A DNA stretch of 43,508 bases. Source: Bacteroidaceae bacterium (lineage in GTDB: Bacteria > Bacteroidota > Bacteroidia > Bacteroidales > Bacteroidaceae). Location: assembly GCA_017646665.1 (NCBI GenBank), contig JAGCMB010000003.1, positions 1 to 43,508 of the forward strand, read 5' to 3'. The position numbers were made by a program, and so were the translations under genes. The notes below the pieces were generated by a model, which worked only from the letters and a program-made list of their open reading frames with translations, was not told where the DNA came from and did no database searches. Positions 1,328-43,508 of the stretch are shown here, piece after piece (position 1 is the first letter of the stretch; every line of letters starts with the position of its first letter).

Positions 1328-2677
1328 ATGCACAGAGTCGTAAAAATTTCTAAGGGGTTGAATATCAATTTGAAAGGTGCTCCTGCTAAAGAATTTACAT
1401 CGGTTGACACGCCAAAGCTCTACGCTTTGATGCCGGCTGATTTTACACGTGTGACTCCAAAGGTTGTGGTAAAGCCTGAGGATGCCGTGAAGGCAGGTGA
1501 CGCTTTGTTCGTTGACAAGAGCAATCCTGAATTGCAATTTGTTTCGCCGGTGAGCGGAAAAGTTGTTGCGGTTAACCGCGGAGAGAGAAGACGCGTTCTT
1601 AGCGTAGTAGTTGAATCGGATGGCAAGTTCGAGTCGGTAGAGTACAAGGCACAAGATGTTCTTTCGCTTTCTTCTGACGAGATTAAGTCACATCTCCTCA
1701 AGGCCGGTTTGTTCGGTTTTATCCGTCAAAGACCTTACGATGTTATTGCCACTCCAAGTGATACACCTCGTGCCATCTATGTGTCGGCATTTGACTCAAA
1801 GCCACTTGCTGTGAACTTTGAGGTTGCGCTCAAAGGCAACGAGGAGGATTTTCAGGTAGGTCTTGACGCTTTGTCACGTATCGCTCCTGTTCATCTTGGC
1901 ATTTGCGCTTGTCAGCAGTCAACAGCCTTGACAGTGGCTAAGAATGTTACAACTACAATCTTTAAGGGACCACACCCTGCAGGTAATGTCGGTGTACAGA
2001 TAAACAAGACTGCTCCTGTGAACAAGGGTGAAATCGTTTGGACAATCGGTGCCGAGGAGGTGATTTTTATTGGACGTTTCTTCAATAAGGGTAAAATTGA
2101 TTTCACACGTACCATAGCTCTTGCCGGTAGCGAGGTTAAGAATCCTTCATACAGCAAGGTTGTTCTTGGTGCACAGCTCACAAATATCCTTGCAGGCCGT
2201 CTTGAGAGTAGATATGAGAATCGTATCATCGACGGTAACGTATTGACAGGTAAGAAAACCGTTGCAGACGGTTTCCTTGGTGCCTTCTCTACTGAGGTAA
2301 CTGTAATCCCTGAGATTGTAAACGATGCCGATTTGCTTGGTTGGGCAGCACCTCGTTTTGGCATGTACAGTACAAGCCGCAGCTATTTCAGCTGGTTGAT
2401 GCCTAAGCGCAAGTATACAATTGATGCACGTATCAAGGGTGGTGAACGTCATATGATTATGTCTAACGAGTACGATAAGGTGTTCCCAATGGATATCTAT
2501 CCAGAGTATCTGTTGAAGGCTATAATCACTGGTAACATCGATAAGATGGAGCAACTCGGTATCTACGAGGTGGCTCCCGAGGATTTCGCATTGTGTGAGT
2601 TTGTCGACTCTTCTAAGTTGGAGTTGCAGCGCATCGTTCGCGAAGGCCTTGACAAGCTTCGTGCTGAGATGTGCTAA
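1328..2677 (+). CDS. nqrA: Na+-translocating NADH:quinone reductase subunit A
   Basis: NqrA is the membrane-associated, cytoplasm-facing subunit of the six-subunit Na+-NQR pump, which couples NADH oxidation and quinone reduction to sodium export. At 449 residues it has the normal family length. The N-terminal KISKGLNINLKGAPAK block and the following region (residues about 30-110) form the biotinyl/barrel-sandwich-like fold typical of NqrA/RnfC. The AGNVGVQINKTAPVNKGEIVWTIG region is the conserved central block. There is no transmembrane segment, as expected. It is the first gene of a complete nqrABCDEF operon, preceded by a -7-like box, and nqrB follows after 41 bases. The identification rests on family sequence and on gene order. 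Confidence 0.96.
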   Translation: MHRVVKISKGLNINLKGAPAKEFTSVDTPKLYALMPADFTRVTPKVVVKPEDAVKAGDALFVDKSNPELQFVSPVSGKVVAVNRGERRRVLSVVVESDGKFESVEYKAQDVLSLSSDEIKSHLLKAGLFGFIRQRPYDVIATPSDTPRAIYVSAFDSKPLAVNFEVALKGNEEDFQVGLDALSRIAPVHLGICACQQSTALTVAKNVTTTIFKGPHPAGNVGVQINKTAPVNKGEIVWTIGAEEVIFIGRFFNKGKIDFTRTIALAGSEVKNPSYSKVVLGAQLTNILAGRLESRYENRIIDGNVLTGKKTVADGFLGAFSTEVTVIPEIVNDADLLGWAAPRFGMYSTSRSYFSWLMPKRKYTIDARIKGGERHMIMSNEYDKVFPMDIYPEYLLKAIITGNIDKMEQLGIYEVAPEDFALCEFVDSSKLELQRIVREGLDKLRAEMC

Positions 2678-2718
2678 TTATACGGGTTTAATTTCAATGC
2701 AAAATAAAATATAGTCGT

Positions 2719-3915
2719 ATGAAATTTTTGAGAAATTATATAGATAAAATTAAGCCAAACTTCGAAGAGGGTGGTAAGTTGCACGCTTTCCGTTCTTTGT
2801 TCGATGGCTTCGAAACATTCCTGTTCGTGCCTAACGACACATCGAAGAGTGGTGTTAATATTCACGATGCAATTGACAGCAAGCGTATTATGTCATTGGT
2901 TGTGATAGCTCTTATACCATCACTCCTGTTGGGTATGTACAATATCGGTTTGCAGAATGCAATTGCTGCCGGTACTGTTGAAACAACAACCTGGTTCAGT
3001 ATGTTCCTCTATGGTCTTGTTGTTACATTGCCAAAGATTGCTGTTGCCTACATAGTGGGTCTTGGAATTGAGTTTACTGTTGCTCAATGGAAAAAAGAGG
3101 AGATACACGAAGGCTTCCTTGTGTCAGGTATCCTCATTCCTATGATTGTGCCTGTAGGTTGTCCATTGTGGGTTCTTGCCCTTGCGACAGCGTTTGCTGT
3201 AATCTTCGCAAAAGAGGTATTCGGTGGTACAGGTATGAACATCGTCAATGTGGCACTCATTGCCCGTGCATTCATCTTCTTCGCTTATCCTCAGGTTATC
3301 TCTGGTGATAGTGTATGGGTTGCAACAGAGTCAATTTGTGGCTTGGGCTCAGATGTTACTGTTGACGGTTACACTTGTGCAACAGCATTGCAGAATGTTG
3401 CCAATGGTGCGGCTCCTGTAGGTGCTACCGGTGAGTTGTTGACATCATGCGATATGATTTTCGGCTTTATGCCCGGTTCAATCGGTGAAACAAGTGTTGT
3501 GGCAATTGCTCTTGGTGCTATGTTGCTCCTTTTCACAGGCGTGGCAAGCTGGAAGACAATGCTCAGCGTGTTTGTCGGTGGTATTGCAATGTCGCTTCTG
3601 TTCCAGCACACAATGCCGGAAAACCCAGTGGCTCAGATTCCTTTCTGGCAGCATATCATCCTTGGCGGTTTCTGCTTTGGTGCTGTATTTATGGCAACAG
3701 ACCCTGTTACATCGGCTCGTACCGAGGTGGGTAAATATATCTACGGTTTCGGTATCGGTGCAATGGCAATCCTGATTCGTGTGATGAACCCCGGTTATCC
3801 CGAAGGTATGATGCTCGCTATTTTGCTGATGAACGTGGTTGCTCCATTTATTGATTATTGCGTGGTGCAGTCAAACGTGAATGCCCGTGCTAAACGTGTA
3901 ACAAAAAAGAACTAA
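2719..3915 (+). CDS. nqrB: Na+-translocating NADH:quinone reductase subunit B
   Basis: NqrB is the polytopic subunit that carries a covalent FMN and forms much of the Na+ path and quinone site. The 398-residue protein starts FLRNYIDKIKPNFEEGGKLHAFRSLFDG, a Bacteroidetes NqrB N-terminus, and has about ten hydrophobic segments. The FMN acceptor is expected in a D-x-x-[ST]-G-A-T motif; here residues 216-222 read DGYTCAT, so Thr222 is the likely attachment site with Cys220 in the usual Gly position. This variation is unusual to my knowledge. ApbE, the flavin transferase that modifies this site, is not encoded in the window. It is separated from nqrC by 5 bases. Confidence 0.96.
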   Translation: MKFLRNYIDKIKPNFEEGGKLHAFRSLFDGFETFLFVPNDTSKSGVNIHDAIDSKRIMSLVVIALIPSLLLGMYNIGLQNAIAAGTVETTTWFSMFLYGLVVTLPKIAVAYIVGLGIEFTVAQWKKEEIHEGFLVSGILIPMIVPVGCPLWVLALATAFAVIFAKEVFGGTGMNIVNVALIARAFIFFAYPQVISGDSVWVATESICGLGSDVTVDGYTCATALQNVANGAAPVGATGELLTSCDMIFGFMPGSIGETSVVAIALGAMLLLFTGVASWKTMLSVFVGGIAMSLLFQHTMPENPVAQIPFWQHIILGGFCFGAVFMATDPVTSARTEVGKYIYGFGIGAMAILIRVMNPGYPEGMMLAILLMNVVAPFIDYCVVQSNVNARAKRVTKKN

Positions 3916-3920
3916 CAGAT

Positions 3921-4826
3921 ATGGCAGCAAAGAAATATGTTTGCAAAGTGTGCGGTTATGCACACGAAGGCAATGAGGCTCCTTCAGTGTGCCCATTGTG
4001 TAAGGCCGGTGCTTCGGAGTTTGAGGTTGTTAACGCACCAAAGAAAAAGGGCTTTGATACCAATAGCGATCTCTATGCCATCATCTATTCGGCTTTTGTA
4101 GTAGTTATTGTAGCTTTCTTGTTGGCAGGTGTGTCATCAGTGTTGAAACCAACACAGGATGCCAATATTGCACTTGATAAGAAAAAGCAGATTTTGGCAT
4201 CTCTCAACATCAAGAACGAACTTGATGTGGCTGCCAAGTATGACGAAGTCATCAAAAAAGAGCTTGTTATCAATGCCGAAGGTGTAGAGGTTGCTGACAA
4301 GGGCGGTTTTGATGTTAAGAACGAAGATGTAAATGAAAATAATCTCCCTCTTTATATTGCAGAGGTCAATAATGAGAAAAAATACATTATCCCAATGACC
4401 GGTAATGGTTTGTGGGGTGGTATCTGGGGTTACATAGCTCTTAACGCCGACTGCAACACCATTTATGGTGTATACTTCTCTCACGCAAGTGAAACACCAG
4501 GTCTTGGCGCTGAAATTGCGGCGGACAAGTTCCAGAATCAGTTTACAAAAGATAAGGATGGCAACAAAGTTGTGAAGATGGTGTATAACGAGAATGGCGA
4601 GGTTGCCCTTGAAGTCAAGAAGGGTAAAGGCGATGCCAATTATCACATCGATGCCGTGTCGGGCGCAACTCTCACCTGTAATGGTGTAGATGATATGTTC
4701 AAGAGAAAGCTTGCTCCTTATTATAACTATCTCAAGAACAATGCTCCTGTTGTTGAGGCACCAGTTGCCCAGGAGGAGAATGTTGAACCAGCAGCCGATG
4801 CTGCACAAGTTAATGTGGAGGAATAA
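3921..4826 (+). CDS. nqrC: NqrC with an N-terminal rubredoxin-like domain
   Basis: The C-terminal part is a standard NqrC: a single membrane helix (about residues 51-73), then a periplasmic FMN-binding domain with the flavinylation motif DAVSGAT (residues 244-250, Thr250 the FMN acceptor). The first 37 residues are extra. They contain CxxCGY at C8/C11 and CPLC at C24/C27 with a HEG...AP...CP...FE pattern, the iron-binding knuckles of a rubrerythrin-type rubredoxin domain. NqrC is normally anchored N-in, so this domain should face the cytoplasm, near NqrF and NqrA. The C-terminus ends in an acidic Ala/Pro/Glu tail of about 28 residues. The ATG at 3921 lies 5 bases after nqrB and reads continuously through both domains, so the fusion is not a frameshift artefact. 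Confidence 0.95.
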   Translation: MAAKKYVCKVCGYAHEGNEAPSVCPLCKAGASEFEVVNAPKKKGFDTNSDLYAIIYSAFVVVIVAFLLAGVSSVLKPTQDANIALDKKKQILASLNIKNELDVAAKYDEVIKKELVINAEGVEVADKGGFDVKNEDVNENNLPLYIAEVNNEKKYIIPMTGNGLWGGIWGYIALNADCNTIYGVYFSHASETPGLGAEIAADKFQNQFTKDKDGNKVVKMVYNENGEVALEVKKGKGDANYHIDAVSGATLTCNGVDDMFKRKLAPYYNYLKNNAPVVEAPVAQEENVEPAADAAQVNVEE

Positions 4827-4828
4827 TT

Positions 4829-5458
4829 ATGGGATTACTTTCAAAGAAAAATAAAGAGGCGCTCAATACTCCTCTTTTCAAGGAGAACCCTGTAACCGTT
4901 CAGGTGCTCGGTATCTGTTCTGCTTTGGCTGTTACAAGCAAACTTGAGCCTGCAATCGTTATGGGTCTTTCGGTGACAATTATCGTGGCTATGGCCAACG
5001 TAATTATCTCACTTATCCGTAACACAATTCCAATGCGTATCCGTATCATCGTTCAGTTGGTGGTTGTTGCTGCATTGGTGACATTGGTAAGTGAGGTTCT
5101 CAAGGCTTTTGCCTACGACGTGAGCGTTCAGCTTTCGGTTTATATCGGTCTTATCATTACCAACTGTATCCTTATGGGACGTCTTGAGGCATTTGCAATG
5201 CAGAACAAGCCTTGGCCATCGTTCCTCGACGGTATCGGTAACGGCGTAGGATATGCAATGATTCTTGTAATCGTGGCATTCTTCCGTGAGTTCTTCGGTA
5301 CAGGTGCACTTTTGGGCTTCCAGATTATTCCCGAGAGCTTCTATGAGGCCGGATATATGAACAACGGTCTTATGCTTATGACCCCTGCTGCATTCATCCT
5401 GATTGCTTGCATCGTGTGGTTCCAGAGAGCAAAAGATAAGAGTTTGCAAGAAAAATAA
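4829..5458 (+). CDS. nqrD: Na+-translocating NADH:quinone reductase subunit D
   Basis: NqrD is a 209-residue, six-helix membrane subunit that, with NqrE, holds an intramembrane iron-sulfur centre in the electron path across the membrane. The two conserved half-membrane cysteines are visible in GICSALAVT (Cys30) and TNCILMGR (Cys113). The body has the expected alternating hydrophobic helices and the usual length. It starts 2 bases after nqrC, and nqrE follows after 27 bases. RnfE is the close paralogue, but the surrounding nqrABC and nqrF genes settle the assignment. Confidence 0.96.
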   Translation: MGLLSKKNKEALNTPLFKENPVTVQVLGICSALAVTSKLEPAIVMGLSVTIIVAMANVIISLIRNTIPMRIRIIVQLVVVAALVTLVSEVLKAFAYDVSVQLSVYIGLIITNCILMGRLEAFAMQNKPWPSFLDGIGNGVGYAMILVIVAFFREFFGTGALLGFQIIPESFYEAGYMNNGLMLMTPAAFILIACIVWFQRAKDKSLQEK

Positions 5459-5485
5459 ATTAAGATACAGTAAAGAAAAATAGTT

Positions 5486-6109
5486 ATGGAACATTTCATT
5501 AGTTTACTTGTCCGTTCGGTTTTCGTGGACAATATGGTGTTTGCCTTTTTCTTGGGTATGTGTTCGTTCTTGGCTGTATCTAAGAGCGTTAAGACTGCCA
5601 TTGGACTTGGTGTTGCCGTGATATTCGTACAGGTGATTACATTGCCTGTCAACTATCTGTTGCAGACACAGGTGCTTGCTGCCGACGGTATCTTGGGTGT
5701 TGACCTTACATTCCTTGCGTTTATCCTCTTCATTGCGGTGATTGCAGGTATCGTTCAGCTTGTTGAGATGATTGTCGAGCGTTTCGCTCCTGCACTCTAT
5801 AGCCAGTTGGGTATTTTCCTCCCACTTATTGCCGTTAACTGTGCTATTATGGGTGGCTCACTCTTTATGCAGCAGCGCATCGGCTTGCCAGCCGACAGCT
5901 CACAGGCCATCACCTGCTTTGCCGATTCAATAGCATTTGCTATCGGTTCAGGTTTGGGTTGGATGATTGCTATTGTGCTGTTCGCGGCTATTCGTGAGAA
6001 AATGGAGTACAGCAATGTGCCAAAGCCACTCCGCGGTCTTGGTATTGCCTTCATCACAGTTGGTCTTATGGCAATGGCATTTATGTGCTTCTCTGGTATT
6101 AAAATGTAA
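5486..6109 (+). CDS. nqrE: Na+-translocating NADH:quinone reductase subunit E
   Basis: NqrE is the 207-residue partner of NqrD, with inverted topology and six predicted helices. It supplies the other two ligands of the intramembrane iron centre: Cys26 in [12 protein letters not shown] and Cys119 in AVNCAIMGG. The start [20 protein letters not shown] is characteristic. The downstream nqrF gene begins 12 bases after its stop. The paralogue RnfA is ruled out by the operon context. Confidence 0.96.
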
Positions 6110-6121
6110 TAAAGTAAGGAT

Positions 6122-7390
6122 ATGAATACACAATTGATATTATCAAGTATAGCCGTTTTCCTTGTTATCATCCTTTTGTTGGTGATTATCCTCTTGGTGG
6201 CAAAACGCTTTTTGCTTCCCGGCGGTAACATCAAGGTGAAGATTAACGGCGAGAAAGAGGTTGAGGTTGCTGCCGGTGGTGCATTGCTCGGTACACTTGC
6301 CGAGAACGGCATCTTCCTTCCTTCGGCTTGTGGTGGTAAGGGCTCTTGCGGTCAGTGCAAACTTCAGGTAACAGAGGGTGGTGGCGAGATTCTGCCATCA
6401 GAGACCAGTCACTTCACACGCAAGGAGCAGCAGGCTCACTGGCGTTTGGGTTGTCAGGTTAAGTGTAAGAACGATATGGAAATCAAGGTACCCGAGTCTG
6501 TTATGGGTGTCAAGGAGTGGGAGTGCGAGGTTATATCAAACAAGAACGTCGCAACCTTCATCAAGGAGTTTATCGTTGCATTGCCTCCGGGCGAGCACAT
6601 GGACTTCGTTCCTGGTTCATACGCGCAGATCAAGATTCCTGCATACGATATGACATACGACAAGGATATTGACAAGGCTCTTATTGGCGATGAGTACCTC
6701 CCCGCTTGGGAGAAGTTCGGTTTGCTCGGCCTCAAGTGCAAGAACACCGAGGAAACAATCCGTGCTTACTCTATGGCCAACTATCCGGCCGAGGGTGACC
6801 GCATCATGCTTACAGTGCGTATTGCAACACCTCCTTTCAAGGCCGACCGTTCTGGCTTTATGGATGTACCTTGCGGTATCGCATCTTCATACATCTTTAC
6901 ATTGAAACCCGGCGACAAGGTGATTATGAGTGGCCCTTATGGCGACTTCCACCCAATCTTCGATTCAAAGAAGGAGATGATGTGGGTAGGTGGTGGTGCC
7001 GGTATGGCTCCTTTGCGTGCTCAGATTATGCACATGACAAAGACCTTGAAGACAACCGACCGTGTGATGACTTACTTCTACGGTGCACGTGCGCTCAACG
7101 AGGTGTTCTACTTAGAGGACTTCCTGCAGCTTGAGAAGGAATTCCCCAACTTCACCTTCCACCTTGCGCTCGACCGTCCGGATCCTGCAGCTGATGCCGC
7201 AGGCGTTAAGTACACCGCAGGTTTTGTACATCAGGTTATCTATGAGACATACCTCAAGAATCACGAGGCTCCCGAGGATATCGAGTACTACATGTGTGGT
7301 CCTGGTCCAATGTCAAAGGCTGTTGTCAACATGCTTACCGACCTTGGTGTTGAGGAGAAGTCTATTATGTACGATAACTTCGGAGGTTAA
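6122..7390 (+). CDS. nqrF: Na+-translocating NADH:quinone reductase subunit F
   Basis: NqrF is the NADH dehydrogenase entry point of the pump. In order it has one N-terminal membrane helix (about residues 7-28), a plant-type 2Fe-2S ferredoxin domain with cysteines C70, C76, C79 and C111, an FAD domain with RAYSMANYP and the GPYGDFHP segment, and an NADH domain with GGGAGMAPLRAQ and YYMCGPGPM. It ends in the typical MYDNFGG, at 422 residues. Electrons pass NADH to FAD to 2Fe-2S and then to the membrane centre in NqrD/E and on to the NqrC and NqrB flavins. It is the last gene of the operon, followed within 20 bases by a strong terminator. Confidence 0.97.
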   Translation: MNTQLILSSIAVFLVIILLLVIILLVAKRFLLPGGNIKVKINGEKEVEVAAGGALLGTLAENGIFLPSACGGKGSCGQCKLQVTEGGGEILPSETSHFTRKEQQAHWRLGCQVKCKNDMEIKVPESVMGVKEWECEVISNKNVATFIKEFIVALPPGEHMDFVPGSYAQIKIPAYDMTYDKDIDKALIGDEYLPAWEKFGLLGLKCKNTEETIRAYSMANYPAEGDRIMLTVRIATPPFKADRSGFMDVPCGIASSYIFTLKPGDKVIMSGPYGDFHPIFDSKKEMMWVGGGAGMAPLRAQIMHMTKTLKTTDRVMTYFYGARALNEVFYLEDFLQLEKEFPNFTFHLALDRPDPAADAAGVKYTAGFVHQVIYETYLKNHEAPEDIEYYMCGPGPMSKAVVNMLTDLGVEEKSIMYDNFGG

Positions 7391-7410
7391 TTCCACAGAA
7401 CATATCTATC

Positions 7411-7443
7411 AAAAAAGCACCGTTCGTCGAACGGTGCTTTTTT
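7411..7443 (+). terminator. Intrinsic terminator of the nqr operon
   Basis: A 14-bp stem, AAAAAAGCACCGTT (7411-7424) with AACGGTGCTTTTTT (7430-7443), has a CGTCG loop. The T-rich 3' arm serves as the U tract. It lies 20 bases beyond the nqrF stop. Confidence 0.92.
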
Positions 7444-7507
7444 GCTTTTTGCGTTGTTGCTGTGAAAAATATTCAAGCAAGCTTGATGTTTCTCCCTTGT
7501 TTGTTGC

Positions 7508-36516: not shown

Positions 36517-36669
36517 CATGTTTGTATGCTATTGTGTGGTAATAAGTTACGCATAAAAATACAAGTTTTTTCAAACCGCTTTCCGGGTGTTTTTTAAGTA
36601 ATGTAAATAATTGTTTAAAAGATCTCGGTTTGTAACGTGTTGAGTATAAATAAAAAACAAAATATAAAA

Positions 36670-39600
36670 ATGAAAAGAATTTTTACACATCTTTTTGTTG
36701 CTGTGCTGCTGATGTTGAGTACAACATCATGGGCGCAGTTGTCCTCTCTTGAGGTTGGACAAATTTATAGGTTCGAAAGTGCCAGGGGTGGTCGCTCGTT
36801 GAGGGCTAACGGTTTTGACGATGTGCATACCAAAACTACGGATCTCAATGACAAGGCTCAGGAGTGGTATGTGACCAAGGATGGCGATTACTATGTGTTG
36901 CGTAATGTTGCTTGCGGTAAGTACCTGAGAGGAACTTATTCTTATGGCGCAGCCTGGGGAATGACTGATGATTATTCATCTGCGTTAAATAAATTCCAGT
37001 TGTTGACTTCAAATTCCACCCTGAATACTTTGAAGACTAAAGATTCCGATGGTTACGGTCATATGCACGATGACAATAATGGTGATAATGGCGGCTATAA
37101 TGTGGTGGGGTGGCTTAATAACAATGACAACACCGGTTCGCATTGGACAATAACCAAGGTCGATTATACAGCAGAGCAGATAACCGAACTCCTTGAAATG
37201 GCACCGACAGTTGCAGAGGTTGCATCTTATTCTACTGCACTTAATGCGTTGTTTAATGATGGTGCAGGAGCTTGTGTTGCACCTAAACTTAGTTCGCTCA
37301 ATGCGGCAAAGGCGACCAGTGAATATAAGGCACTCCCAACCGGGTTGAAAACTATGGTCGATAAGGTGTATGGTGATGCTTGGGGTGAGGATAATGCCGA
37401 TGCAACAAAACAAGCGAACAACCTTAATTGGGATGCAGAATATGCCAAGAAATTCCGTGTGCAGATGTATGAGCCATACAGTATTGCAGGCGACATTACA
37501 TCGTGGCTTGGAATAAACTCTCACGCCAACAACGATAACCCTACAGGTATATATATGCCTGCTGCCGGCAATCTTTATGTAATGGTGGAAGGTGAAATAA
37601 AAGAGGGTGCAACATTGCGCATTGTCGATGGATATACAAACCGTCGAATAAACGGAACCACAACAGAGAGCGCTGTTGAGTTGAGACCGGGCTTGAATGT
37701 CATAAACTATACAGGAGCTACCGGAATGTTGTATATCTGCTACAATGTCGATACCTACAATCCCAACGGAGCAACACCTACCGAAAAGTTTCCTCGTAAA
37801 CTCTCTGAGTTTGCACCGTTGAAAATCCACATCGAGGGTGGTGCCATCAACGGTTTCTACAATGCCTGCGGCGACTTCCGCGCAACAACAGATACAGAGA
37901 ATCTTTGGAAGACATATACAGGTGCTAATGTTGATGCCGACGCCGATTGGGAATATATGGAAACTCGTGCCAACTTGAGCATATTGCCCATACTCGGCCA
38001 TCGTGAAATACTTCTTCTTCAATTGGAGGATGAACAGGGTGGTCGCGGTTTGCGCTCTTTGTTACCCGAGGCAATAAATTGCCCTTCTACTCCATACAGC
38101 TATGCTGAAACCTGGGCCGACTATGGCATGGGTTGTGACCCCTCAACCGGAAAAATCAACATTGTAATGGAGGCGTGGGACCGTATTTTCTACTCTCAGC
38201 TTGCAACAATGGGTCTTGTCAGCAACTCACAGATGAATAGAATCAACGCCCTCTATCCACGTTGGACAAAAGAGGGTGAGTGTGCCGAGATTTACAACTA
38301 TGGCAGTGCAACTATCAATAATGATACACAGACATATTTGGAGTTCTGCCAATACGTAGATTATAGCGAATATTTCAATCATCATGGTGTCATATTGGGT
38401 ACAAGCAGCGGTAATCCTTATGGTGGCGGCGACCACGTAGGTTATCCCATCGGTGGCTTCAGTGCAGCGGTCTATGACTTGCCTAATACAGCCGGTTCTA
38501 CTTGGGGACCTGCCCACGAGATTGGTCACCAGCATCAGGGACTTCTCACTTTGAATGGTCTTACCGAGGTTACAAATAACCTGTTTTCAAATATCTCTTT
38601 GTGGTATAAGGGTATGTCAACATCGCGCTACAATGGCAGTGACGGTTCATTGGAGAGTGTGTTGAATGCTTTCAACACTAACGGCAGTGACATATATACC
38701 AATAACATCTGGGCACTTACCCATCTATACTACCGTTTGTGGCTCTACTATCACTTGGCTGGTAATAACACACAGTTCTATCCACGTCTTTTCGAGCTTT
38801 TGCGTCAGAACCAGATGCAGAAGGGCTATAATGTGTCGGGTGATGTATCAACGTTGCACTTCTACAAACTAACTTGCCAGGCTGCCGGTGAGGACTTGAC
38901 CGAGTTCTTCCGTGCGCACGGCTACTTCTCTGTAATGGAGGACCGTTTTGTGGGCGACTATAGCAACTCTGTCTATAATGTTTCGCAGCAGATGATTGAC
39001 GATGCAATTGCATATGTCAAGGGGCAAGGCTATCCCGAGAATCTCTCGATACTGTTCATCAATGACGATGATGATACAGCTACTTATCTGCAGCACGACG
39101 GAGAAAATGCACGTGAAATATACGGCGAGACAAAGCCAAACTCCGATTTTGGTTCTGTAACCGATTTCATTGCCGGCAATGTGGCAACAACACCATACAC
39201 AGCAACGCTCAATAGTGACGGAACACTCACAATGAGCGGTGGCGAAGGCGGTGTCGGCTTCCTCATCGTCAACGAAAAGGGCGAGATTGTGTCATTCAGT
39301 AACAAATCTACTTTTGCATTGGGTGATGAGGCTATGGAAGCAATAATTTCGGGTAATGCAACAATCAAGTCTGTCGGTTCTGCAAGCAATGTAGTTGAAG
39401 CCGAGGTGGACCTCACTATATTGCAAAAGGAAGTACTTGGCGCTATGATATCAAAGGCACAGTCTATTGTTGATAAGGTTGATGATACATATACAAAGAT
39501 TGGCTATTTCAAGAAAGCAGCGGTTGCCGGCCTTGAAAGTTCTCTTGAATACGCCAAAGAGGTATATGCAGGTGCATCGGGCTATGAGGCCGCATACGAC

Positions 39601-42600
39601 CTTCTCTATGCCGAATATACAAAGGTGTTGGAGAACAAGGATGCTAAGATTCCTTTCAATCCATCACTTACCTATATTATAAAAAACAAGGCCTATTCAA
39701 GCGAAACAATGTGGGTGAATAGTTCCGGTGTTGTGCGCTCCGAGGGTGGTGTTGACCAGACAAGCAATGATGCAAGATGGAAGTTCGTGGAGACATCAAC
39801 AGCCGGTGTCTATAATATCCGTACTTTGAGCAACAAGTACATCCCTGCAGTGCAGCAGTCTGCTTCAATGAACGCTACAAGCGACAAAGCGGACAACGAT
39901 GCTCTTTACACATTGGAAGAGGTGGCTGATGGTGTCTGGGCAATCAAATTGTCACCTGCAGCCGGTTACAGGAATCTGCACTCGTCTTGGAGCAATGTGG
40001 TTGGTTGGGAGACCGGTGCCGATGCTTCTCGTTGGTATCTCACCGCTGTTGCTGCCGACCCGGTGATTGCTGACCTTGCCAATCTTGAGGTTTATATAAA
40101 TAAAACCGAGCAACTGCTTGATGAGGTAGTTGGTACTGTGACATATACCAAAGGCACACCGCTTTCATTGCAGACAACAACACAAAACAGTGCAGGCTAT
40201 CTTTGGTCAAATGCTCCGGAGGATTCCGAGGGTAGTATCAATTATCTGGTCGATGGAACAACCGGTGTTAATGCAAACTATTTCCACACCGAGTGGAGTA
40301 GTGAGCCACCATCGGGTTCTCACTATCTGGCTGTATATCTGGGCGAGGATAATGACCTCTCAAACTTTACATTCAGCCACACAACCCGTTCGGGAGCCAG
40401 TGCCGATTTCCCAAAGAGTGTAGATGTCTATGGTAGCAACGACAATGTTACCTACAAATATATCGGCTCGGCATCGGGTATGCCGCAGAGTGCCGGCACG
40501 GCTTGGGAGTTTGATGGAGTGATGCTCTCGTCATATAAATATCTGCGCTTCAATTATCACGCGAACCGTGGCTACTGGCACATGGCAGAGTTTGATATAA
40601 CACCTATCACCGATTTCACAGCAATAGTCAACGATACATACAACAGCACTGTCACTGTAGATGCCGTTACAGCAGCAATGAATGCTCTGCACAATGGAAA
40701 GAGAACCGCAAACAGCATATCGCCGACAAGCGGTGATATTGATGCTAAACTGCAGGCGCTGCAAAGTGCTTATAAAACATTGTATGGACAGTACGAGGCA
40801 ACAATAGATACCCGCAAGGCAACGCTTGCCCAATTGGCTGCCGAAACGGAGACACTTATGAATGGCGTGGGAACTGTTACTTTAGCGGTAGAAACTCCAA
40901 TCACCCTCACAACAAGCAATTTCTATTGTAATGCACCGTATATAGCATCGCAAAATGCTGATTATTCAGCAGAATATGTTTCTAAACTGACAGACAATAA
41001 CTCGGGAACATATCTGCATACTCGTTGGAATACCAATTCGGACGATGGTGACTATCACTACTTGCGTGTAGATGCGGGAGAAACAACTCCAATTGATTTG
41101 TTCTATTTTACCTATACTACTGCATCACGAAGCAAAAAGGATATGCCGCTCACAATGGTTGTTGAGGGTGCAAATGAGATAGATGCGTCAAATAGTACAA
41201 TAGATAATACATTTACTGAGATTGCGACACTGACACCGCTACCCGAAGTCCTGAATACGAATACCGTATATGAATCTTCTGTTCTGGGAAGTGCAGATAC
41301 AAAGTATCGCTATCTGCGCTTCAAAGTGACCGATATTACAGCCGATGAAGATGATAAAAACGGACACCCATTCTTTACAATGTCGGAATTCGGCTTGACA
41401 TCCGTTACCGAAGAGAATGTTACAGTGAACAATGCATACAAGAATTTTGTCACCGATGAATTGCTGCTCACAACAGTGCATACTACAAATTCATCAAAAT
41501 CAATGAGTACCAATGCTCTTGTTACAAGTGTACCTTTGCTCGATGCGCAGATTGCCGACCAGACAGCTGCAAAGGCTGCCCTTGAGGAGGCAATGGCAAA
41601 GGTTGTTGTTGATAAGACAGCCTTGCAATCACTCTATGACGATGCTTTGGCATTGTATGGCGAAATGTCTGAAGACGACGTTGTGAATGCCAACTATGCT
41701 CCATCGGCATTGACAAACGAGAAACTTGCAGAGGTAAAAACAGCCCTTGATGCTGCGAAGGACAAACTCGATAACAGCAATTCACAAAGCGAAATCGAAG
41801 ATGCAAGAACTGCTTTGCAGGCAAAATATGATGAACTGCTTGCCATTAAGGATGCGAACGTGGCAACAACTATTGACAAGAGCGAATTGAATACAGCAAT
41901 TGCCAATGCCAATGCTTTGATTGCTGCAATTGAGGCTAAGGGTGATGGATATTATGAATCAGTTGCAGGGTTTGGCCTTGCCGAATTATCATTTGCCTTG
42001 CAGAATGCAGAGACTGTTGTTAATCGTTTCTATCTCACAGAGGAGCAGTATACAGAAGCATTCACTCTGTTGAATAATTGCTACACAACAACAAACGGCA
42101 TTGTTGCTCTTGACTGCAACAGCGAGAACCGCAATAACCTTTCAACACTCATTGGCAACGTGAACGCTCTGCTTTCTACTATTGCAGTTGAGGGTGAAAA
42201 CACTCAGGCATTGCCTTTGCAGACGACAAATGCCAACGCTGATTTCTACATCAATCTTTCAGCAGTAGGTGACGGTAATGTGACAAATCTTATAGATAAG
42301 AATGCCGATGGCAGCTCAAACATTAATACTTATGTCGGTTCTGCTTGGGGTGGTACTATTGCTGATTATACACACTATGTACAAGTTGACTTGGGCGCAG
42401 ACTGCTCTTTGGACAAATTCTCATTTGACTACGCAACCCGTAACAGCGGTCATGACACAGAACGTCCTGTCAAAATAAAGATTCTTGGCAGCAATAATGG
42501 AACAGACTTCACAGAGGTTACTGTAATTGAAGAGGGTCTTGCCGAAGGTGCGGGCGAGAAGTCGGCATTGTTGTCGGTTGAACTCGGCAAGCATTACCGC

Positions 42601-43508
42601 TATATCCGCTTTGCGGTCAAGTCGGGTGTAAACTCATTCCACATGTCCGATTTCAACCTCTATACCAAGTTGTCGCATACACTCAAGGAGTACTATACGA
42701 CAGCCGAGGGGCTTGACCTTACAACATTGTGTCTTGCGCTTGACGAGGCAAAAGATGCAGCGGCCCGTTATATGACTGCAGAGCAGTGCACTGCTGTTTA
42801 TAATAAACTCGACGGTTGCTATACAACTGCAAATGCTATTGCAAGCAACGATTATAGCGACCGCGATGCGCTTGCTACTTTGAAAACCGCTGCAGATGCT
42901 CTTGTTGACGCTGTTGTAGCCATTGACGAGACCGAAACGGTGTTGGCATTGCAGGCAACAGATGCGAATGCTCCTTATTATATATATTGCAACGCGCCGG
43001 GTGCAACAAATAACTATGCAGGTGACAACTTGGGTGTTGCTGCATTGCTCGATGCTGATGAAGGTGGCGAACCTATTACCGCAACATTCCTGCACACTTC
43101 GTATGTCGCTGGTAGCCACGATGATGCCCTCGACCACTACTTGCGCGTTGATATGGGCGAGAGCAACCTCCTGTCGTTCAAGTTCCGTTATACTCCACGT
43201 ATCGGCAACACCGGCAATGCTCCATTGGTGATGCTCATTGAGGGTAGTAACGACTGTGTGAACTTTGAGGAGATTACAACACTCACCGATATGGCAACAA
43301 CATATCAGTCGGGTGAGATAACAAACGATAAAGCCTACCGCTACATCCGCTTCATGGTTAAGGAAACGCATAATCACAGCAAGTTTGATAACCATGAGTT
43401 CTTTGCAATGAGCCACTTTGAGATGACTGCTTGCAAGACTGTTACAATAAATCAGGAGTATGCATCGCCTAACTTGTCGGTTGATGTGGCTGCAAATGCT
43501 TATAACGA
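36670..43508 (+). CDS. Giant secreted M60-like (enhancin/mucinase-type) metallopeptidase, 3' end outside the window
   Basis: An uninterrupted frame of 2,279 codons runs off the window. In order: signal peptide (MKRIFTHLFVAVLLMLSTTSWA); a beta-trefoil-like module (about 28-165); the M60-like peptidase domain (about 250-800) with zinc motif HEIGH at residues 616-620 and Glu633 in NGLTEVTN as the likely third ligand; a second trefoil-like module (about 999-1127); and four discoidin/F5-8C-like modules (about 1158-1311, 1403-1578, 1845-2000 and 2091-2258) separated by helical spacers rich in Ala, Leu and Glu. M60-like enzymes of gut Bacteroides such as BT4244 attack mucin glycoproteins, so a host- or glycoprotein-directed, surface or secreted role is likely. 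A C-terminal sorting signal may lie beyond the window. Confidence 0.88.
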   Translation, partial: MKRIFTHLFVAVLLMLSTTSWAQLSSLEVGQIYRFESARGGRSLRANGFDDVHTKTTDLNDKAQEWYVTKDGDYYVLRNVACGKYLRGTYSYGAAWGMTDDYSSALNKFQLLTSNSTLNTLKTKDSDGYGHMHDDNNGDNGGYNVVGWLNNNDNTGSHWTITKVDYTAEQITELLEMAPTVAEVASYSTALNALFNDGAGACVAPKLSSLNAAKATSEYKALPTGLKTMVDKVYGDAWGEDNADATKQANNLNWDAEYAKKFRVQMYEPYSIAGDITSWLGINSHANNDNPTGIYMPAAGNLYVMVEGEIKEGATLRIVDGYTNRRINGTTTESAVELRPGLNVINYTGATGMLYICYNVDTYNPNGATPTEKFPRKLSEFAPLKIHIEGGAINGFYNACGDFRATTDTENLWKTYTGANVDADADWEYMETRANLSILPILGHREILLLQLEDEQGGRGLRSLLPEAINCPSTPYSYAETWADYGMGCDPSTGKINIVMEAWDRIFYSQLATMGLVSNSQMNRINALYPRWTKEGECAEIYNYGSATINNDTQTYLEFCQYVDYSEYFNHHGVILGTSSGNPYGGGDHVGYPIGGFSAAVYDLPNTAGSTWGPAHEIGHQHQGLLTLNGLTEVTNNLFSNISLWYKGMSTSRYNGSDGSLESVLNAFNTNGSDIYTNNIWALTHLYYRLWLYYHLAGNNTQFYPRLFELLRQNQMQKGYNVSGDVSTLHFYKLTCQAAGEDLTEFFRAHGYFSVMEDRFVGDYSNSVYNVSQQMIDDAIAYVKGQGYPENLSILFINDDDDTATYLQHDGENAREIYGETKPNSDFGSVTDFIAGNVATTPYTATLNSDGTLTMSGGEGGVGFLIVNEKGEIVSFSNKSTFALGDEAMEAIISGNATIKSVGSASNVVEAEVDLTILQKEVLGAMISKAQSIVDKVDDTYTKIGYFKKAAVAGLESSLEYAKEVYAGASGYEAAYDLLYAEYTKVLENKDAKIPFNPSLTYIIKNKAYSSETMWVNSSGVVRSEGGVDQTSNDARWKFVETSTAGVYNIRTLSNKYIPAVQQSASMNATSDKADNDALYTLEEVADGVWAIKLSPAAGYRNLHSSWSNVVGWETGADASRWYLTAVAADPVIADLANLEVYINKTEQLLDEVVGTVTYTKGTPLSLQTTTQNSAGYLWSNAPEDSEGSINYLVDGTTGVNANYFHTEWSSEPPSGSHYLAVYLGEDNDLSNFTFSHTTRSGASADFPKSVDVYGSNDNVTYKYIGSASGMPQSAGTAWEFDGVMLSSYKYLRFNYHANRGYWHMAEFDITPITDFTAIVNDTYNSTVTVDAVTAAMNALHNGKRTANSISPTSGDIDAKLQALQSAYKTLYGQYEATIDTRKATLAQLAAETETLMNGVGTVTLAVETPITLTTSNFYCNAPYIASQNADYSAEYVSKLTDNNSGTYLHTRWNTNSDDGDYHYLRVDAGETTPIDLFYFTYTTASRSKKDMPLTMVVEGANEIDASNSTIDNTFTEIATLTPLPEVLNTNTVYESSVLGSADTKYRYLRFKVTDITADEDDKNGHPFFTMSEFGLTSVTEENVTVNNAYKNFVTDELLLTTVHTTNSSKSMSTNALVTSVPLLDAQIADQTAAKAALEEAMAKVVVDKTALQSLYDDALALYGEMSEDDVVNANYAPSALTNEKLAEVKTALDAAKDKLDNSNSQSEIEDARTALQAKYDELLAIKDANVATTIDKSELNTAIANANALIAAIEAKGDGYYESVAGFGLAELSFALQNAETVVNRFYLTEEQYTEAFTLLNNCYTTTNGIVALDCNSENRNNLSTLIGNVNALLSTIAVEGENTQALPLQTTNANADFYINLSAVGDGNVTNLIDKNADGSSNINTYVGSAWGGTIADYTHYVQVDLGADCSLDKFSFDYATRNSGHDTERPVKIKILGSNNGTDFTEVTVIEEGLAEGAGEKSALLSVELGKHYRYIRFAVKSGVNSFHMSDFNLYTKLSHTLKEYYTTAEGLDLTTLCLALDEAKDAAARYMTAEQCTAVYNKLDGCYTTANAIASNDYSDRDALATLKTAADALVDAVVAIDETETVLALQATDANAPYYIYCNAPGATNNYAGDNLGVAALLDADEGGEPITATFLHTSYVAGSHDDALDHYLRVDMGESNLLSFKFRYTPRIGNTGNAPLVMLIEGSNDCVNFEEITTLTDMATTYQSGEITNDKAYRYIRFMVKETHNHSKFDNHEFFAMSHFEMTACKTVTINQEYASPNLSVDVAANAYN
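40144..43443 (+). repeat. Four diverged discoidin-like modules inside the M60 protein
   Basis: Four segments (about 40144-40605, 40877-41405, 42203-42669 and 42940-43443) share one plan. Each has a LxLQTTxxN opening, YxxNA, a variable-length insert with HTxW or similar, HYLRVDxGE, a FxYTTR-like strand, GSNDG or an equivalent, a Tyr-Arg-Tyr-[IL]-Arg-Phe strand, and MSEFxL at the end. They are too diverged at DNA level to be recent duplications. Helical linkers (for example 41536-41870) separate them. Confidence 0.65.

Follow-up and report, generated by a model that had tools for sequence, protein, structure and literature searches.

The 43,508-nt stretch of contig JAGCMB010000003.1 analyzed here (the window), from a Bacteroidaceae bacterium, carries a complete nqrABCDEF operon (positions 1328-7390, + strand). 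The operon codes for the Na+-pumping NADH:quinone oxidoreductase (NQR), which is an NADH:quinone oxidoreductase of gut Bacteroidales, Bacteroides fragilis and Prevotella bryantii being published examples. All six subunits score above their TIGRFAM cut-offs (Table 1), and the core pump ligands in NqrF and NqrD/E are all present. The NqrC protein begins MAAKKYVCKVCGYAHEGNEAPSVCPLCKAGASEFEVV and, as a sequence-only reading of the window had pointed out, its first 37 residues hold four cysteines (C8/C11 and C24/C27) in a rubredoxin-like arrangement, fused to the N-terminus of an otherwise normal NqrC with its membrane helix and FMN domain. The latter matches FMN_bind at residues 163-263 and carries the flavinylation motif SGATLT at residues 247-252, in which Thr250, the candidate FMN-bearing residue, aligns with T225 of Vibrio cholerae NqrC.

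The four-cysteine (Cys4) domain is readily recognized by profile. PF21349 (RUBY_RBDX) matches NqrC residues 6-35 with 49.5 bits against a cut-off of 26.5 (E 2.8e-13), while the classical rubredoxin profile PF00301 stays below its cut-off (15.2 bits vs 23) and covers only its first 12 positions. No ferritin-like diiron bundle was found on NqrC, as only RBDX and FMN_bind pass the Pfam cut-offs. The AlphaFold2 (AF2) model, a whole-protein model from which the domain fold was taken, depicts the N-terminal domain confidently as a rubredoxin-like fold, and its fold matches are rubrerythrins and rubredoxins; the invariance of the cysteines in the 52-row model alignment is partly circular, since the rows were chosen by the Cys4 pattern.

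Table 1. Features of the nqr operon and of its NqrC subunit in the window.
Feature	Position	Strand	Evidence and remarks
nqrA	1328..2677	+	TIGR01936, 511 bits
nqrB	2719..3915	+	TIGR01937, 465 bits
nqrC, 301 aa	3921..4826	+	TIGR01938, 201.1 bits (cut-off 144)
N-terminal rubredoxin-like (reverse-rubrerythrin type) Cys4 domain, NqrC residues 1-37	3921..4031	+	Candidate ligands C8, C11, C24, C27
NqrC linker with lysine run, residues 38-49, ahead of membrane helix	4032..4067	+	Length variable between relatives; pLDDT 59 at residues 41-50
NqrC membrane helix and linker helix (model helix 50-94)	4068..4202	+	AF2; model residue 49 = V. cholerae NqrC residue 7 in 8ad0
Periplasmic (by homology) FMN domain, NqrC residues 150-272	4368..4736	+	PF04205, 64.7 bits; TIGR01938
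nqrD	4829..5458	+	TIGR01939, 299 bits; candidate [2Fe-2S] ligands C30, C113
nqrE	5486..6109	+	TIGR01940, 279 bits; candidate [2Fe-2S] ligands C26, C119
nqrF	6122..7390	+	TIGR01941, 568 bits; [2Fe-2S] motif C70, C76, C79, C111
Terminator-like hairpin, 16 pairs, closing the nqr operon	7410..7444	+

Several observations bear on whether the domain is made. The ATG of nqrC lies 5 nt past the nqrB stop, and in fused relatives the start likewise comes soon after nqrB, the median distance being 7 nt and 64 of 68 lying 4-17 nt beyond the stop. Ahead of the membrane helix, the only in-frame codons that could serve as starts are GTG10, GTG23 and TTG26, all within the domain; no further Met occurs until residue 159. 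An internal start that skips the domain, including the internal Met start that the earlier reading had allowed for, is therefore rejected, as start-like codons are absent between domain and helix. Among 11 sequences from the clade of the window, the ratio of nonsynonymous to synonymous differences (pN/pS) was 0.23 in the domain, 0.30 in the linker, 0.17 in the helix, 0.34 in residues 76-150, 0.30 in the FMN part and 0.68 in the C-terminal tail; with synonymous differences near saturation (pS 0.59-0.83), these ratios order the regions but are not an exact measure of selection. The codons of the domain cysteines vary in these sequences only between TGT and TGC, and all four cysteines are kept in every one of the 36 fused NqrC sequences read from the family (48 genomes being called fused by alignment). 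The domain is thus under purifying selection and, on this evidence, is probably produced as part of NqrC, given the start position, the lack of a bypassing start codon and the selection acting on it.

The earlier reading had suggested a survey of N-terminal Cys4 domains in NqrC across Bacteroidales, and it revealed a patchy distribution, scattered beyond the family of the window. In these surveys, the fusion state was judged by the starting point of the protein alignment, and a domain beyond a long linker could thus be missed. An NqrC match was present in 135 of 151 genomes of the window's family (the other 16 having none), 48 with the domain, 85 without it and two, G019 and G129, with an NqrC too partial to tell and hence excluded from the fused/unfused contrast. 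The fusion is accordingly not universal in Bacteroidales NqrC and, being found in 48 of 135 NqrC-bearing family genomes as well as in named cultured strains, neither is it a unique oddity or an artifact of a metagenome-assembled genome. A draw across the order gave an NqrC match in 130 of 159 genomes, and the domain was covered by four alignments, that of the window included. Outside the order, no alignment reached the domain in 56 genomes of the class with a match, or in 42 genomes of the phylum (the window's own excluded; seven shared with the class draw).

Named relatives were sought in a contig scan limited to the best 80 of 330 related places, with patterns that favor fused copies, so that it yields names rather than frequencies. 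Among these 80, fused NqrC was read in Parabacteroides chinchillae, P. bouchesdurhonensis, P. distasonis An897 and Segatella paludivivens DSM 17968, and fused records also carried the names Paraprevotella, Phocaeicola, Paludibacteraceae, Dysgonomonadaceae, Tidjanibacter and Alistipes. The domain is lacking in NqrC of Bacteroides finegoldii, B. faecis, Leyella stercorea and Prevotellamassilia timonensis. NqrC of Prevotella bryantii is given as 210 aa in PMC6560451. As a separate observation, G067 is the sole genome without an NqrC match among the nine in the family survey that share the window's genus code (g1), and also the sole one with cydA.

To follow the history of the fusion, we built a FastTree phylogeny of NqrB, NqrC minus the domain, NqrD and NqrE. 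From 160 loci with hits to all four subunits, removal of eight near-copies or short rows, and of four truncated second copies or otherwise truncated rows, left 148; the 152-row tree gave the same result. The trait changes 15 times on this tree, 13 of the changes being forced by well supported branches, as compared with about 49 changes with shuffled labels, and one sister pair consists of a locus with the domain (L186) and one without it (L197). The domain is inherited in clades, yet its gain or loss is frequent in lineages that retain NQR, indicating that it is an accessory and not a core part of the pump. The tree is midpoint-rooted and does not tell gain from loss; nevertheless, a lysine at position 9 of the domain is common across families, which suggests a single origin of the module followed by many losses.

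We then asked which kind of rubredoxin domain is attached to NqrC. Aligned over 34 columns, the NqrC domains of the main form (57 distinct sequences) show a mean identity of 62.6% to the N-terminal domains of 21 reverse rubrerythrins, and of 47.4% to two classical C-terminal rubrerythrin domains. The NqrC domains compared (57 + 4) are distinct sequences selected by the Cys4 pattern, three of them from one protein, and the 21 reverse rubrerythrins were picked by architecture; a later scan recovered both PF21349 and PF02915 (Rubrerythrin) in all 21. In classical rubrerythrins, an Asn, an Ala or Ser, and a His near the iron have a role in raising its potential; in the Desulfovibrio vulgaris protein, we take these to be N160, A176 and H179. 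The window NqrC has Val10, Leu26 and Ala29 where that protein (1b71, 1ryt, 9fj2) has these three. At positions 10, 26 and 29, most NqrC domains have V, V/L and A, which agrees with the reverse type, while the two classical domains have N, A/S and H. By sequence, then, the NqrC domain appears closest to the reverse-rubrerythrin type, which it also resembles in its N-terminal location, rather than to the classical C-terminal type; the label "rubrerythrin-type rubredoxin" given by the sequence-only reading was apt as to the rubredoxin-like nature of the domain, but not if the classical form was meant. Unlike reverse rubrerythrins, in which a diiron four-helix bundle follows, NqrC lacks the bundle and mostly has Lys9 (51 of 57 main-form domains; Thr in 19 of 21 reverse rubrerythrins) and Glu33 (39 of 57; Lys in 21 of 21), a signature consistent with a different partner surface.

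It is fairly unlikely, in our view, that the domain is purely structural, binding Zn or Fe and carrying no electrons while steadying the cytoplasmic face or recruiting fumarate reductase, NqrF or other partners, as its sequence strongly matches an electron-carrying family and the residues of the reverse-rubrerythrin redox site are kept. One relative, G094, has three tandem Cys4 domains before the membrane helix of its NqrC (L178 / L185, G094:C18), with three PF21349 stretches; such a tandem triplication suits a carrier and a docking role equally well. A divergent N-terminal ribbon, CSQCGQ...CPICG, also occurs within the family (NqrC L047, L051, L054, L056, L183 and L186-L188), with the four cysteines retained and the HEG motif lost.

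In the characterized NqrC proteins compared, the chain starts just before the helix, as the sequence-only reading had stated: V. cholerae NqrC (8ad0, 7xk3, 9u5g and others) has no Cys4 domain ahead of the helix, its residue 1 corresponding to model residue 43 (9u5g), and its solved chains align from model residues 43-49 on, or later in soluble constructs. As a statement about NqrC in general it does not hold, since the fusion is common in Bacteroidales, including all of the nearest relatives, among the loci compared, of the NqrC in PDB entry 3lwx. This entry, from P. distasonis ATCC 8503 (2010), which we traced through PMC4767422, where the accessible part does not discuss the domain, represents the soluble domain only. 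As those nearest relatives are fused, the domain was probably left out of the crystallized construct, and native P. distasonis NqrC would be fused as well. No published description of a rubredoxin domain on NqrC was found in the open-license PubMed Central literature, and the fused NqrC is a variant of a known complex, apparently undescribed in the literature that could be searched.

What could such a domain do? The N-terminus of NqrC precedes the helix, a lysine run precedes the latter, and homology places the FMN domain in the periplasm; the Cys4 domain is therefore expected on the cytoplasmic side, in agreement with the earlier reading. We tentatively propose, as a possibility with somewhat less than an even chance of being right, that in this NQR the NqrC rubredoxin acts as a side exit for electrons from NqrF to soluble acceptors. 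We infer for the domain an iron, a potential, a cytoplasmic location, a donor, an acceptor and a physiological role as follows. The reverse-rubrerythrin-type domain would face the cytoplasm, most likely bind one iron in its Cys4 site with a potential near 0 mV, and be tethered beside the NqrF ferredoxin domain; it would take up single electrons drawn from NADH by NqrF and hand them to soluble acceptors, of which rubrerythrins or rubredoxin are the most plausible. The complex could then supply electrons for the reduction of peroxide or oxygen while no Na+ is pumped.

The direction of transfer is suggested by potentials. Menaquinone lies at about -74 mV. PMC12174285 gives -320 mV for NADH and describes the flexible ferredoxin domain of NqrF as delivering electrons to NqrD/E, and PMC7482061 reports +10 and -10 mV for the rubredoxin centers of Clostridioides difficile reverse rubrerythrins. 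On these figures, transfer from NADH to a center near 0 mV would be downhill and onward transfer to menaquinone uphill; thus, of the side entry or exit contemplated by the sequence-only reading, the exit is favored and the entry disfavored. A domain that feeds the pump, or relays electrons from NqrF to the NqrD/E cluster, would be on the correct side of the membrane by homology and could make use of a flexible linker, but in addition to the uphill step it has to contend with a full set of NqrF and NqrD/E ligands and with the many relatives that keep NQR without the domain, which makes it highly improbable.

Alternatively, the domain could be an electron sink that keeps the NqrF flavin and cluster oxidized and so limits accidental formation of superoxide and peroxide upon entry of air. 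PMC5210497 explains the residual O2 consumption of B. thetaiotaomicron vesicles by NADH dehydrogenase autoxidation, and mentions a like proposal for cluster N1a of complex I. Still, a one-electron store has a small capacity unless the electrons move on, at which point the sink merges with the exit, and on its own we consider it quite improbable.

Acceptors for a side exit are widely available. PF21349 occurs in 148 of 151 family genomes when NqrC copies are included, and after their subtraction 47 of the 48 fused genomes clearly keep another copy, the doubtful one being G068, whose single weak hit may be its own NqrC. The genome of the window has a reverse rubrerythrin. Rubredoxin (PF00301) was found in 124 of the 151, that genome included, which bears on whether the fusion might stand in for free rubredoxin. 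By contrast, Rubredoxin_C (PF18267), which we take to be the C-terminal domain of the common NADH:rubredoxin reductases, was found in none of the 151 family genomes, with 4 of 14 control genomes positive. Its absence means that this homology does not reveal the reductant of rubredoxin and rubrerythrin in the family, although a reductase of another type is possible. The NQR branch is a candidate for that reductant, and as a donor to rubrerythrins it may be attractive, but it is not proven. If the side exit is real, an extra redox site on the input side would let NQR send electrons elsewhere than to quinone. We know of no rubredoxin domain in RSX, the RNF relative of Escherichia coli. RSX is nonetheless supposed, according to PMC12174285, to reduce cytoplasmic SoxR, and would then likewise be an RNF/NQR-type complex handing electrons to a cytoplasmic redox protein, with a different output.

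The comparison of fused and unfused genomes weighs against the side exit or does not help it, in that gene co-occurrence gave it no clear backing. Acceptors of the same kinds are present in relatives without the fusion, and rubrerythrin genes were detected by pattern near nqr in only 2 of the 80 named loci. Other RBDX proteins number 2.23 per fused genome vs 2.04 per unfused genome (p = 0.12), the former value falling to 2.08 if PF21349 counted the divergent NqrC domains of seven genomes, which were assumed uncounted; extra rubrerythrins therefore do not clearly accompany the fusion. Superoxide reductase was present in 13 of 48 fused and 17 of 85 unfused genomes (p = 0.39), so its replacement by the fusion is rejected for want of a link. 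Replacement of cytochrome bd is rejected as well: cydA is less frequent among fused genomes (21 of 48) than among unfused ones (59 of 85; p = 0.005 without kinship correction), but this association is confounded by kinship and its sign varies within genera. The lack of a consistent link to cydA or superoxide reductase also speaks against a redox, oxygen or iron sensor, in which oxidation or loss of the metal site would change NQR turnover or signal to another protein. The domain does adjoin the electron input module by homology, and its distribution is patchy in anaerobes, as could be expected of a sensor; however, the NqrC chain has no regulator, kinase or receiver domains, and the linker varies and has a low-confidence prediction, so that we hold a sensor to be decidedly unlikely.

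Returning to the side exit, its most far-reaching version would make NQR in many Bacteroidales a branched enzyme, both a Na+ pump and a membrane NADH:rubredoxin reductase, with the NqrC rubredoxin as a main electron supply for rubrerythrins in lineages devoid of the common reductase, and with some members extended to three domains; this we regard as possible but doubtful. The idea is directly testable, as fused NqrC occurs in Parabacteroides, Paraprevotella, Segatella paludivivens and Phocaeicola-labelled genomes, which have close natural relatives without the domain.

A few other features deserve mention. Just upstream of nqrA, TAAATTTG at positions 1287-1294 resembles the Bacteroidetes -7 promoter element, according to what we take to be its consensus, and no convincing -33 element was seen upstream of nqrA by eye. 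The hairpin that closes the operon has the longest stem of seven sites found in the hairpin search, as compared with a mean of 6.7 sites in shuffled sequences. Two genomes of genus g9 (G094:C7 and G058:C7) have a rubredoxin gene on the cydA strand, less than 1 kb upstream of cydA.

Of 148 NqrC proteins, 16 (L183, L054, L182, L181, L063, L017 and others) have at least four cysteines in the tail that follows the FMN motif, with up to 44 in L054; this C-terminal tail is expected to be periplasmic and may have a metal-binding or disulfide role. Elsewhere in the same genome, outside the window, a 580-aa ORF (L002 / L202, G000:C34:950-2689, + strand) codes for a permease of the Xan_ur_permease family (PF00860, 151 bits), the C-terminus of which runs in frame into a piece of NqrC corresponding to residues 71-194 of the window NqrC, at 43% identity and without SGAT. 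This permease-NqrC fusion is found in 4 of 41 genomes of the genus, with a pN/pS of 0.35-0.40 in the tail vs about 0.1 in the permease part. Finally, a very long ORF at positions 36637-43506 runs off the window after 2290 aa; its first 788 residues include a match to Peptidase_M60.
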